The position numbers and the translations under genes are program-made. From the NCBI GenBank assembly GCA_030950375.1, contig JAUZRN010000019.1, positions 62,001 to 126,000 on the forward strand: a DNA stretch of 64,000 nt, in the 5' to 3' direction. Under the pieces are notes generated by a model. It saw nothing but the letters and a program-made list of their open reading frames with translations. It was not told where the DNA came from and did not search any database. Each line of letters starts with the position of its first letter. The first letter of the stretch is position 1. Positions 54,302-61,455 of this stretch are shown here, piece after piece. This DNA comes from Rhodothermus sp. Its GTDB lineage: Bacteria > Bacteroidota > Rhodothermia > Rhodothermales > Rhodothermaceae.

Positions 54302-56845
54302 ATGAGACGCGTACTACTCCTGACGGTAGGCTGGTTTTTCCTACTGCAACCAGCGGCGCAGGCCCAGAACGCCTGGATCAACGAATTCCACTATGACAAT
54401 GCTGGCGCCGACGCCAACGAATTTGTCGAGATTGTTATCGAAAATGCCTTTGCATTCTCGCTGGATGACTTCACCCTGGTACTCTACAATGGCAACGGCG
54501 GTGCCCCCTACAGCACGCATACGCTGGGCACGTTTACGGAAGGAGCAACAGTCGGCAACTATACTTTCTTTTACAAATACATTGCTGGTATTCAGAATGG
54601 CGCACCCGACGGATTGGCGCTCTGCTACCAGGGTAACCCGATTCAGTTGCTCAGCTATGAAGGTGTCCTTACAGCCAACGGAGGCTGTGCCGATGGCATC
54701 CTCTCCACCGACATCGGTGTGGCCGAAAGTGGTACGACAGGCGCCACGGAGTCGCTTCAGTTAACCGGTTCAGGTTCTGACTACGCAGACTTTAGTTGGA
54801 CCGGTCCTGCAGCTGCTTCTCCAGGCATGCCTAACGCGGGCCAGACGATGCTCAGTCGGCCGGTGGTGAATATTAACAAAGGTACGAGCTATAATACCCT
54901 GCAGGAGGCCATCGACGATGCCGATCCGTATGATCAGCTTGAGCTGCAACCCGGCACTTACCCGGAAACCATCACGATCGACAAATCCCTATCGGTGGTG
55001 GGCGCTTCTACTGGACTTCCCAAGCGGAGTACACGCCGGACGCACCCGCACCGCACGCAAAGCATTGGTTGTACGCTCCCCGTCATCATTGATGCTACAG
55101 GTTTCCCTATTGGGATCAACATTGCCGCAAATGACGTGTACCTGTCCGGTTTCTGCATTACCGGAGCCACCAATGCCAACCTGTATATCAATGCCATTAT
55201 TTCTAATCTCACACTGGCTCAGATCGAATCTGTCAACACAGGACCCTATGGTTACGGCTTCGACATTCACAACAATGCCGAAGTCGATGGACTGAATATT
55301 TCAGAGTCCTATTTTGCCGGACATTTTATCGGCATGCGCGTTCGAGGCTCGCTCTTTGGGGCCGAAATCAACGCCAGCACTTTCGAACAAAACCAACACA
55401 GTGGCCTGTACACCACACATGGCAATGACACCACAGGAAGCACTTTCGTGGAACACCTGAATATCTTGGATACTCAGTTTGCCGATAACCCCTGTAAAGC
55501 CATTTATGCTGAGAAACTTGCCCATACGCTTTTTATGAACGTGACGGTTGAGAACAGCGGCACCTCTCAGACCCCAGACTGTTTGTATCCCGAAGCCGTT
55601 GATCTTAACCTGAAATATGGTTCCTATGAGAATCTCCGGTTTGACAACTTACATGTCACCGGCTCCATTGGCGAGGGATTGCACATCAAGGGTCGTGCAG
55701 ACTACGGCAATGCTTCGGTTGATAACGTGGTCATTGAAAATAGCTATTTTGCTGACAACAGTATCGGTGTCGCCATCGGGGGTAACGTGGGTGTGGGGGA
55801 AGGATTGACGTTGCGCGCCAGCGCTATTGTAAACAACGGCAATGAACCGGATCGCTACATCTATAAAGACAGCACAGCAGTCAGCTACGCTACGCGGGGT
55901 GGTGTGTTGCTCTATAACATCCCTGACAATGCATGGATCAGTCTCACCTACAACTGCATCGTTAACAACGGGACGACCGAATACAATGGTACTTACGGCT
56001 TTGGGCTGGCCAATGCCGGAGACGCCACGGTGGATGCCGTAAACGTCTGGTGGGGACAGGCCACAGGCCCTGTATTTTTCACCGGCACTTTTACGGAAGG
56101 GAACTATGTCTTTGAAGGTGCCGACGTCGTTACAGATCCGTTTGCCACAGCACCCCATGCCGACATTGAGGGTTGTGGCGGTCTGACAGGTACCTGTACG
56201 CTGGCTACGCTGGGCACGCTCCAGGTACTGAATCCGAGCACAGGGCGAGCGCAGATCCTGGGCACTGACGGCATCCAGATCGTTCAGAACAGTCCTACCC
56301 AGCCGAATGTCAACCTGGAGCTTGTCAATGTCACAGACGGCGACGGCAACCCGGTCTTCACCGAAATCGCGCCAGGTGTCTGGGAATACACGGGCGGGGG
56401 ATCTCCGCCGACCGAAGCCTGGGCCTATTACCAGCGGCTCGATACGAGCGACCCCAACAATCAGTTTTTCCTGCAGGTGTCTACGGTCTGTCCTTCCGAG
56501 CCGGACGGCACCCTGGAGGCCCACCTCGATCCAAACTTTAGCTTTGGAGAGGCTCTGCCTGCCACCTTTGCTGTCCGGTCAGCTGCGCCCAATCCGTTCT
56601 ATACACGCACAACACTGGTTATCGAGCTACCGCAGCCAGCCCACGTCATGGTCCGTATATTCGATCTGCTGGGCCGCGAGGTGGCCCTCCTCACCAATCG
56701 CTCCATGCGAGCCGGTACCCACCAGATCGTATGGGAACCCGGACGCAGTGGGCTTTCTGGCGGTACCTATCTTCTGCAGCTGATTGTCCGAGAAAATACC
56801 GGCAGACATCACCGGCATACGCAACTACTGACCTTCATTCACTGA
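54302..56845 (+). CDS. Large secreted protein with lamin-tail-like domain, beta-helix and T9SS C-terminal sorting domain
   Basis: This 847-residue protein has a signal peptide (residues 1-21, ending QAQ). Residues about 23-150 resemble a lamin-tail/ExeM-like domain (WINEFHYDNAGADANEFVEIV, FTLVLYNGNGG). Residues about 190-600 form a right-handed beta-helix (YNTLQEAIDDADPYDQLELQPGTY, then repeated Asn/Asp-rich turns such as NSYFADNSIGVAIGGNVG). The last 80 residues are a type A T9SS sorting domain (SAAPNPFYTRTTLVIELP, RIFDLLGREVALL, SGGTYLLQLIV). It is exported over the outer membrane by the type IX system and likely held at the surface. Possible pectin/polysaccharide-binding or adhesive role; no active site recognised. 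A small ORF follows 15 bases later. Confidence 0.88.
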   Translation: MRRVLLLTVGWFFLLQPAAQAQNAWINEFHYDNAGADANEFVEIVIENAFAFSLDDFTLVLYNGNGGAPYSTHTLGTFTEGATVGNYTFFYKYIAGIQNGAPDGLALCYQGNPIQLLSYEGVLTANGGCADGILSTDIGVAESGTTGATESLQLTGSGSDYADFSWTGPAAASPGMPNAGQTMLSRPVVNINKGTSYNTLQEAIDDADPYDQLELQPGTYPETITIDKSLSVVGASTGLPKRSTRRTHPHRTQSIGCTLPVIIDATGFPIGINIAANDVYLSGFCITGATNANLYINAIISNLTLAQIESVNTGPYGYGFDIHNNAEVDGLNISESYFAGHFIGMRVRGSLFGAEINASTFEQNQHSGLYTTHGNDTTGSTFVEHLNILDTQFADNPCKAIYAEKLAHTLFMNVTVENSGTSQTPDCLYPEAVDLNLKYGSYENLRFDNLHVTGSIGEGLHIKGRADYGNASVDNVVIENSYFADNSIGVAIGGNVGVGEGLTLRASAIVNNGNEPDRYIYKDSTAVSYATRGGVLLYNIPDNAWISLTYNCIVNNGTTEYNGTYGFGLANAGDATVDAVNVWWGQATGPVFFTGTFTEGNYVFEGADVVTDPFATAPHADIEGCGGLTGTCTLATLGTLQVLNPSTGRAQILGTDGIQIVQNSPTQPNVNLELVNVTDGDGNPVFTEIAPGVWEYTGGGSPPTEAWAYYQRLDTSDPNNQFFLQVSTVCPSEPDGTLEAHLDPNFSFGEALPATFAVRSAAPNPFYTRTTLVIELPQPAHVMVRIFDLLGREVALLTNRSMRAGTHQIVWEPGRSGLSGGTYLLQLIVRENTGRHHRHTQLLTFIH

Positions 56846-56860
56846 AACTGACGTGTAGCT

Positions 56861-57010
56861 ATGCGTACCAACACCACGACCCAGAAGGCATCCGCCTCCA
56901 CCACCCACCAGACGCCTGCTACGGAGAGGCGGCGCCCCTTTGAGCCGCCGCGCCTGGAATATCAGGGGCGTCTGACTGAGCAGACAACAGGCGTTTTCTC
57001 GTTCTCATAG
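56861..57010 (+). CDS. Small ORF with a lasso-peptide-type leader motif (orphan RiPP precursor candidate)
   Basis: This 49-codon frame starts at ATG 56861, 15 bases after the T9SS cargo stop. The N-terminal half is Thr/Ser/Gln rich and looks disordered. Residues 27-43 read FEPPRLEYQGRLTEQTT, which fits the spacing YxxPxLxxxGxxxxxT of lasso-peptide leaders (F27, P30, L32, G36, T42). In that family the core begins two residues after the Thr, here at G44, leaving only GVFSFS. That core is too short and has no Asp or Glu at positions 7-9, so it cannot be a normal lasso ring. It may be truncated, a different RiPP, or chance. A hairpin at 57038-57074 follows. No maturation enzyme lies in this window. 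Confidence 0.45.
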   Translation: MRTNTTTQKASASTTHQTPATERRRPFEPPRLEYQGRLTEQTTGVFSFS

Positions 57011-57037
57011 CTCCCCTCAGCCGACCGGATGGATGAG

Positions 57038-57078
57038 CCACCCACGGGCGGGCCGTTAAGACGCTCGTGGGTGGTTTC
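57038..57078 (+). terminator. Hairpin/terminator after the small ORF
   Basis: A 9-bp stem (CCACCCACG at 57038-57046 with CGTGGGTGG at 57066-57074) is followed by TTTCT. The tract is weak, but its place suggests the end of the cargo/small-ORF transcript. Confidence 0.6.
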
Positions 57079-57712
57079 TACCGGCGTCTACGAATGGCTT
57101 GCGTTCCGATCTGTCGTCCATCCCGGCTGTAAAAAGTCCCCAGGAACTACTCTGTTGTTTCGGGTCAGCAAATCTTGAGGAGCTGTGGCACTACGCATTG
57201 ATCCTGCACAACCTGGCTTCGTCTCCCTACATGGCACACAGCTGTCGAACATCAGCGCCGCCTTTATCCAGAAGTCTTCCGCTTCCCTTTGAACAAACGG
57301 TTGGAAAGGCATTCCTTCGACTGTTAGCGTCGACAGTCTGAGCTCAATCCTTTACAGCAGGGCTCCTTAGCTTGCTTCTATAAGGAGATCGGTCTGGAGT
57401 GCATCTGTCCACTATCGGGGCAGCCTTTGCTTGGATCCCTCCTATGCGGGGGGATCTTCCCCGATCCGTACTGAGGTGCACGCCGTCTTCCGGGCAGACA
57501 AACTATCACAGCCTTTCACGTTCGTTCCCCGGTCAGGGGACGCCTGGAACATACAAAAAAACACCTGCCTTATTCGAAGGCGTACCGTTTAACAGTGTAC
57601 GTCTCCCCCTTCTCAAAGCTGTCAACATTTCGACACGATCTACCGATTACTTCAAGACCGCTGTCCACCGAGGGCTTTACGGCTCACGTTTCCGACCGCG
57701 GGGCCGACGCGA
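57079..57712. other. Stretch without an assignable gene
   Basis: No reliable gene is seen. Plus-strand frames at 57099-57341 (LEELWHYALILHNLASSPYM) and 57371-57591 (VHYRGSLCLDPSYAGGSS, no usable start) look faintly coding but match nothing I know. A 171-codon frame at 57399-57914 has an AAGGAGAT 11 bases upstream of its GTG but runs antisense over gpmI. The region may contain decayed genes. A minor hairpin with a T-run on the minus strand near 57551-57585 may end the gpmI transcript. Confidence 0.4.
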
Positions 57713-60282: not shown

Positions 60283-61455
60283 ATGCACCGCTTGTTGCTA
60301 TCGCTGTTGCTGCCGCTGATAGCTCTCCCGACGACGGCTCGTCCACCACTTTCGGACAGCGCCCGTGTAGCGCTGGTCACCATTCTGCCTGGACGTTCCC
60401 TGTATGCGGCGTTTGGTCACAGCGCCCTGCGCGTATACGACCCCGTACAAGGCATCGACTGGCTTTTCAACTATGGTACGTTCGACTTCAGCGATCCCTG
60501 GTTTATTCCCAAATTTATCTATGGCCAGCTCGACTACTTTCTATCGGTGAGCGATTATGCACGCGCGGTCCAGTTCTATCGCGATGTAGAAAGGCGCCCG
60601 ATTATCGAACAATGGCTGAATCTGTCGCCTGACCAACGCGACACGCTTATGGCTTTTCTGATGTGGAACGCCCGTCCAGAAAACCGCACCTATCGCTACG
60701 ACTTTCTGTTCGATAACTGCTCTACACGCATCCGGGATGTGCTTGAACGTACGCTGGGGTCAGCGCTTCGTTTTACACATGCAGCTCCGGCCGCTACATT
60801 TCGCCAGATGCTCGATCCATATGTAGCCGACCGCCAGCTGTTGCAGCTTGGTTTTTATTTAGCACTTGGTCAGCGGGTTGATCGTCTCCCTACAGCCCGT
60901 GAGATCATGTTTTTGCCCCTGGACCTGAAAAGTGCCTTCGATCAGGCACAGGTGCTACGCGATACCGCCTGGTTGCCCCTGGTTGCTCGGACCGACACCG
61001 TATTCTGGCCTGAAGGCCACCGACCGCTACCTGCCCCGACCTGGCCGTGGCTCACCATGCTGAGCTGGTTACTGTTTGCCGCCGGTGCAGGTGCGACAGG
61101 TATCGGCTGGCAACGGGGACCGCTCTCCTTCCCCCGCCTGGATGCGCTGCTTTTTGGTGCCGTGGGGCTGGTTGGCCTGGTGTTGTTACTGCTCTGGATA
61201 GCGACAATCCATACGGTAACGGCCTGGAACTGGAATCTGCTCTGGGCCTGGCCACCGCATCTGTTGGTAGCCATACGCCTCTGGCGCCGTCGTCTTCCGG
61301 ATCGTCTGGAGCGTGTCTATCTGTTCGTGACGGGTCTGCTCACGCTTCTGCTGGTGTTCGGATGGTTTTTCTGGCCGCAGGATCTGCATCCGGCGCTGCA
61401 GCCAATTGCACTACTGCTGGTCGTACGTACGGCCACACGTCTCTATGTTCAATGA
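60283..61455 (+). CDS. DUF4105 (Lnb-like) exported membrane protein
   Basis: This 390-residue protein has a signal peptide (LLLSLLLPLIALPTTA) and an N-terminal DUF4105 domain: SLYAAFGHSALRVYDP with a conserved His, NYGTFDFSDPWF, and YDFLFDNCSTRIRDVL with a conserved Cys, a His/Cys pair of the kind used by papain-like thiol enzymes. The last 150 residues carry four to five membrane spans (WLTMLSWLLFAAGAGATG onward). The domain is that of Lnb, reported to N-acylate lipoproteins in Bacteroides; activity here is inferred. It diverges from nth and converges with the GT2 gene, 17 bases from its stop. Confidence 0.85.
   Translation: MHRLLLSLLLPLIALPTTARPPLSDSARVALVTILPGRSLYAAFGHSALRVYDPVQGIDWLFNYGTFDFSDPWFIPKFIYGQLDYFLSVSDYARAVQFYRDVERRPIIEQWLNLSPDQRDTLMAFLMWNARPENRTYRYDFLFDNCSTRIRDVLERTLGSALRFTHAAPAATFRQMLDPYVADRQLLQLGFYLALGQRVDRLPTAREIMFLPLDLKSAFDQAQVLRDTAWLPLVARTDTVFWPEGHRPLPAPTWPWLTMLSWLLFAAGAGATGIGWQRGPLSFPRLDALLFGAVGLVGLVLLLLWIATIHTVTAWNWNLLWAWPPHLLVAIRLWRRRLPDRLERVYLFVTGLLTLLLVFGWFFWPQDLHPALQPIALLLVVRTATRLYVQ

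Follow-up and report, generated by a model that had tools for sequence, protein, structure and literature searches.

The analysed window is a 64,000-nucleotide stretch of a Rhodothermus sp. genome of 3.03 Mb. On its forward strand, positions 56,861-57,010 encode a peptide of 49 residues, MRTNTTTQKASASTTHQTPATERRRPFEPPRLEYQGRLTEQTTGVFSFS, composed of a lasso-type leader and a very short tail. The leader motif, F27-x2-P30-x-L32-x3-G36-x5-T42 (56,939-56,986, forward strand), can be read directly from the sequence and follows the pattern of lasso leaders (Y/F-x2-P-x-L, with Thr at the penultimate leader position) at exactly the right spacing, as an earlier, sequence-only reading of this DNA had claimed. 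The tail, G44-V-F-S-F-S49 and the stop codon (56,990-57,010, forward strand), is the putative core. A lasso core is expected to carry an Asp or Glu acceptor at about positions 7-9; GVFSFS ends after six residues and contains neither. The missing ring acceptor, also pointed out in that reading, is a feature of the window copy and of seven of the eight sequences of the genus.

The frame begins 15 bases past the end of the open reading frame of an 847-residue beta-helix protein with NosD-like repeats (54,302-56,845, forward strand). The C-terminus of this protein scores 24.4 bits against the type IX secretion system (T9SS) sorting-domain model TIGR04183 (cut-off 23), which upholds its earlier description as a T9SS-exported protein. 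Family-model searches found no T9SS sorting domain in the peptide itself; it is the upstream protein that carries one. Downstream, the hairpin noted in the earlier reading is indeed present (57,025-57,084, forward strand; -39.5 kcal/mol, z -3.7) and may mark the transcript end; it is not listed in the output of the intrinsic-terminator scan because a long T run is absent. The peptide is probably made from the transcript of the T9SS surface protein. None of the family models searched recognises it: NF033521 (curated cut-off 19 bits) matched neither the window peptide nor anything in genome G000. Elsewhere in the window, positions 60,283-61,455 encode a homologue of the lipoprotein N-acyltransferase Lnb family, with 243.7 bits against NF051878 (curated cut-off 550); the Pfam models Lnb_N and 5TMH_Lnb both exceed their cut-offs.

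A conserved gene under purifying selection

Open reading frames with the leader motif are expected 0.2 times per 64 kb (40 simulated sequences), and the window holds only one. Leader and tail together occurred in none of the 40 simulated 64-kb sequences. A DNA pattern joining the leader to G-x-aromatic-x-aromatic-S-stop (GxFxFS-stop) was then scanned through 245 genomes, with the reversed pattern as a control. Eight copies were found in six genomes, all of the genus Rhodothermus; outside the genus, the scan gave a single genuine gene, in G092, and a fortuitous match interrupted by an in-frame stop. No match to the reversed pattern occurred in the 245 genomes. The peptide is present in six of the seven Rhodothermus genomes, with one extra copy each in G004 and G005, and was not found in G003. 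A single-sequence scan matched two Rhodothermus MAGs.

Among the eight genus sequences, R24, R25, P30, R31, L32, G36, L38 and T42 are invariant, as are G44, F46, F48, S49 and the stop codon in the tail. Between pairs of the genus, dN/dS is about 0.17-0.41 for the whole gene; for the last 25 codons, it is 0.07-0.16 in most pairs, while two pairs that have few substitutions give 0.27 and 0.34. The 49-codon frame is a real gene under purifying selection: the orthologues in related genomes conserve both leader and tail, and the ratios are not those of non-coding DNA, the two points on which the earlier interpretation depended. Tail and stop are under selection and do not vary: the gene is maintained with this short end and has not been truncated. 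A truncated lasso precursor, one of the options proposed initially, is therefore not supported.

Related peptides behind T9SS cargo genes across the Rhodothermales

A search outward from the genus, based on peptide similarity alone and not on neighbouring genes, identified over 15 additional loci, in other families of the order, at which a related leader is followed by a short and mostly aromatic tail. The family consensus is a polar N-terminus followed by [RK][RK]xFxxPxLxxx(G/D)xxxxxT and a short tail. Tails ending in Ser include GVFSFS, GSFNFS, GGFVFS, GQYQWS, SVYAFS, TIYEFS and GTFTFGVAAAS; GSVNLW and SINLWDKK are among those without a terminal Ser. The window peptide is a member of an apparently undescribed family of tiny lasso-leader peptides without the lasso-forming part. 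A phylum-wide search found no convincing member beyond the order, and the weak hits in G425, G388 and G379 have no T9SS gene upstream. Genome G026 contains T9SS-linked leader peptides (loci L213, L214 and L260) with longer cores, GPGLGTEDAVIF... and GPGMTGTQDAVIF..., the third copy looking degenerate. Acidic residues occupy core positions 7-8 of the G026 tails. Given this core length and these acidic residues, some members might still be lasso precursors, and the G026 peptides are possibly true ones located behind T9SS genes.

All copies in the genus have a T9SS-cargo gene directly upstream. The beta-helix/peptide gene pair is found likewise in G006, G004, G002 and G005; the paralogue in G004 follows a different cargo of 595 residues, that in G005 a related cargo, and the G001 peptide lies behind an LTD-like cargo of 402 residues. 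Outside the genus, most of the related peptides likewise have a T9SS cargo gene immediately upstream, at loci in G012 (three loci), G026 (two, plus the degenerate third), G027 (two), G016, G007, G091, G092 (two), G074 (two) and G090. TIGR04183 was checked for the cargos of G001, the G004 and G005 paralogue loci, G026 (two), G092 (two), G007, G091 and one G012 locus, and the remaining assignments rest on the conserved tail pattern. The beta-helix orthologues of G002, G004 and G005 score slightly under the T9SS cut-off. Placement behind a T9SS cargo gene, observed at first for the window only, is therefore a repeated feature in the order. Genes with a T9SS tail number 16-139 per genome, roughly 0.6-3.5% of all genes (gene totals are estimated). 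With a model built from the genus only, five of the 11 hits outside the genus lie behind T9SS cargo (p about 2e-5). The general lasso-leader model behaves differently: its hits are ordinary lasso-type precursors, and the majority of them do not follow T9SS genes.

Candidate modification machinery

The sequence-only reading called the peptide an orphan. Locally this holds, as no set of B1, B2 and cyclase C adjoins the gene in its own genome; for the genome as a whole it does not, since a candidate set is encoded on contig C59 and adjoins the peptide in relatives. The C59 locus comprises an NTP_transf_5 protein, a lasso B2 (NF033537, 63 bits), an HprK-related kinase and a second PqqD. Kinase and PqqD are under the curated cut-offs (47 of 200 bits for TIGR04352 and 23.7 of 35 for TIGR04353). 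The kinase retains the H/G/GKS/DD residues named for lasso-precursor kinases (PMC10368454), and the B2 retains its Cys and His. Among solved structures, the C59 PqqD is closest to the lasso RREs TbiB1 (E 1e-12) and TfuB1 (E 1e-5). A genome-wide search for lasso proteins and RREs, as suggested initially, thus yields B2 and PqqD on C59 and, on contig C30, a lasso-type cluster (precursor, ABC transporter and PqqD) cut by the contig end.

In the genus, the precursors of the lasso clusters themselves (L033:5586-6332, L034:5829-6575 and L079:18-209) have cores such as GSCWYGKQGGQYDADLGPGTLSDCR and GSGWGRPPHIPRGW..., without Asp or Glu at the usual positions 7-9, yet the cyclase NF033535 is encoded alongside in G002 and G004. 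Their true core start or their ring may be unusual. In G004 and G002 (L033 and L034), the entire lasso cluster lies ~2 kb from the beta-helix/peptide pair and faces it; it is located elsewhere in other genomes.

In a tree of PqqD proteins (58 rows and 94 columns, with some long branches), the C59-type RRE forms a group of its own, with a support of 94/95, apart from the PqqDs of lasso clusters. The group includes G007, G012, G026, G027, G073, G074, G091, G092 and G093. Among 60 relatives, the C59-type RRE and the peptide co-occur (Fisher p 2e-7; 1e-4 when the genus is counted once). Exceptions exist: the RRE is found without the peptide in G003, G031 and G037, and G016 has the peptide with an RRE outside the group. 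In G003 and G001 (L085 and L088), the C59-type locus consists of B2 and PqqD only, with no kinase, and NTP_transf_5 is degenerate in G003 and missing in G001. A strict requirement for the kinase is not supported, as G001 possesses the peptide. In G011, twelve PqqD-domain matches in long open frames on a few contigs suggest an unusual expansion of RRE fusions.

In peptide-bearing genomes, the RRE usually lies beside an HprK-like kinase and NTP_transf_5, sometimes with a lasso B2; no cyclase gene adjoins this distinct PqqD-type RRE there. Several relatives join peptide and machinery in one place. The order is peptide, kinase, PqqD in G026:C29, and kinase, PqqD and NTP_transf_5 adjoin the peptide in G073 and G074. 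In G091, the peptide is convergent with NTP_transf_5. G027:C342 shows the order T9SS cargo, peptide, T9SS cargo, B2, with a PqqD nearby; the same cargo-peptide-cargo order is present in G016, directly followed by a B2 match. In G007, kinase, PqqD and NTP_transf_5 are present, the tail does not end in Ser, and no B2 was found in the genome; hence, neither cleavage nor phosphorylation of a C-terminal Ser can be universal. Together with G001, which lacks the C59 kinase, G007 argues against one uniform chemistry.

Interpretation and comparison with known systems

These peptides are probably precursors of a leader-guided modification other than lasso formation, co-expressed with surface proteins. 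Among the three options of the sequence-only reading, a precursor for another RRE-guided modification has fared best: the frame is conserved, and the genome encodes lasso-type RREs, a B2 and kinases. The modification itself, as well as the binding of the leader and any service to the surface protein, we infer from these associations. The window frame would give a cytoplasmic RiPP-type precursor, of which residues ~24-42 would be the lasso-type leader, held by the PqqD-type RRE (B1), and the last six residues the substrate or part of the product. Its modification would take place in trans, by a cassette encoded at another locus, which in the window's genome is on contig C59. No lasso ring is possible on the window tail, as the acceptor residue is absent. 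By analogy with PadeK, PsmN and BsfK/BsfB1, a likely reaction would be phosphorylation of the conserved C-terminal Ser49, possibly with transfer of a sugar or nucleotide onto it, and B2, where present, would remove the leader by a cut after residue 43. Judged as a paeninodin-type substrate, the peptide has a Ser49 invariant in the genus and a kinase with its motif present; in the genus, however, the kinase gene lies apart from the peptide gene, and the C59 locus of G001 lacks it. As a guess, the product could accompany the cargo as a label or signal that is synthesised alongside it.

More tentatively, the whole could be a T9SS-coupled system, in which leader peptides, each paired with a surface-protein gene, are served by one trans-acting cassette of RRE, kinase and NTP_transf_5, with or without B2, to give phospho- or glyco-peptides acting with or on the exported protein. 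If true, such a system would constitute a RiPP-like class in which no lasso is formed. The peptide family supplies candidate substrates for RRE/HprK-kinase/NTP_transf_5 cassettes without an adjoining lasso cyclase gene, and makes the role of leader-guided kinases and NTP_transf_5 enzymes testable where the cyclase is absent. It also connects the type IX secretion system with leader recognition of the RiPP type, and shows that lasso-leader peptides can pair in trans with many unrelated surface proteins. The literature searched contains no description joining lasso peptides and type IX secretion; publications naming both 'RiPP' and 'T9SS' are, judged by title, apparently unrelated.

The best-surviving alternative, which we nevertheless consider unlikely, is an unmodified adaptor. 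The leader would be borrowed for docking on the RRE (or on the kinase or B2), the tail would be a short binding motif, and the peptide, tied to the synthesis of the cargo, would serve as regulator, decoy or recruiter. In favor of this, the tail is very short, differs in detail among families and lacks the C-terminal Ser in some members, and G001 retains the peptide without the C59 kinase. However, the operons of relatives join the peptide to kinase, NTP_transf_5 or B2, as is usual for precursors, and the penultimate-type Thr is mostly retained. Clearly less probable is an ordinary or recently truncated lasso precursor, processed by the lasso cluster of the genome. The exact leader spacing, the presence of such a cluster (~2 kb away in G002 and G004) and the acidic positions 7-8 of the G026 relatives are in its favor, but the tail and stop are conserved, the precursors of the genus lasso clusters have W-x2-P-x-L leaders, and a separate RRE clade tracks the peptide. 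Processing by the lasso cyclase of the genome is rejected because the acceptor is missing. It is very improbable that the peptide assists the secretion or assembly of the T9SS cargo. The tail would then serve as a short strand or a chaperone-like element, and the resemblance to a leader would reflect another binding site. The position behind T9SS cargo genes that are unrelated to one another, seen in several families, and the alternating aromatics of the tail would fit, but the co-occurrence with the RRE clade and the linkage to kinase, NTP_transf_5 and B2 are left unexplained, and the sequence shows no signal peptide. A chance frame, non-coding DNA or a pseudogene can be dismissed, even if family models miss the window copy, as this is refuted by conserved orthologues and paralogues, an invariant stop, dN/dS well below 1 and the empty reversed-pattern control.

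The closest comparison for a leader-guided modification is with the phosphorylated (and glycosylated) lasso peptides: paeninodin (PadeA/PadeK), pseudomycoidin (PsmK/PsmN) and Bsf of Bradymonas. In these systems, B1 binds YxxPxL and speeds the kinase, which phosphorylates the C-terminal Ser in paeninodin and Ser3 in Bsf; hexoses on phospho-Ser are associated with PsmN, and B2 takes off the leader (PMC9266682, PMC10368454). The Rhodothermales set resembles them in its YxxPxL-kind leader, PqqD-type B1, HprK-like kinase, nucleotidyltransferase-like protein and, often, B2, and the Rhodothermus copies share the C-terminal Ser with paeninodin. Unlike them, it has no adjoining cyclase, its peptide has a six-residue tail without ring acceptor and a leader motif that opens with F where theirs has Y, and the precursors are scattered behind T9SS cargo genes.

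The same leader pattern defines NF033521 (lasso_leader_L3, lasso RiPP family leader peptide-containing protein), which gives weak matches to four of the 18 family members (best E 0.0012); the window copy, on the contrary, is unmatched, and within the order only a minority of the NF033521 hits lie behind T9SS genes. An HprK-related kinase with a PqqD-family chaperone is also typical of the HPr-rel-A system (TIGR04352 HprK_rel_A and TIGR04353 PqqD_rel_X), but here both models remain below their curated cut-offs and the pair is tied to NTP_transf_5 and lasso-leader peptides. Finally, the closest solved relatives of the C59 PqqD, TbiB1 (5v1u/5v1v) and TfuB1 (6jx3), serve lasso clusters, whereas the C59 type groups separately.
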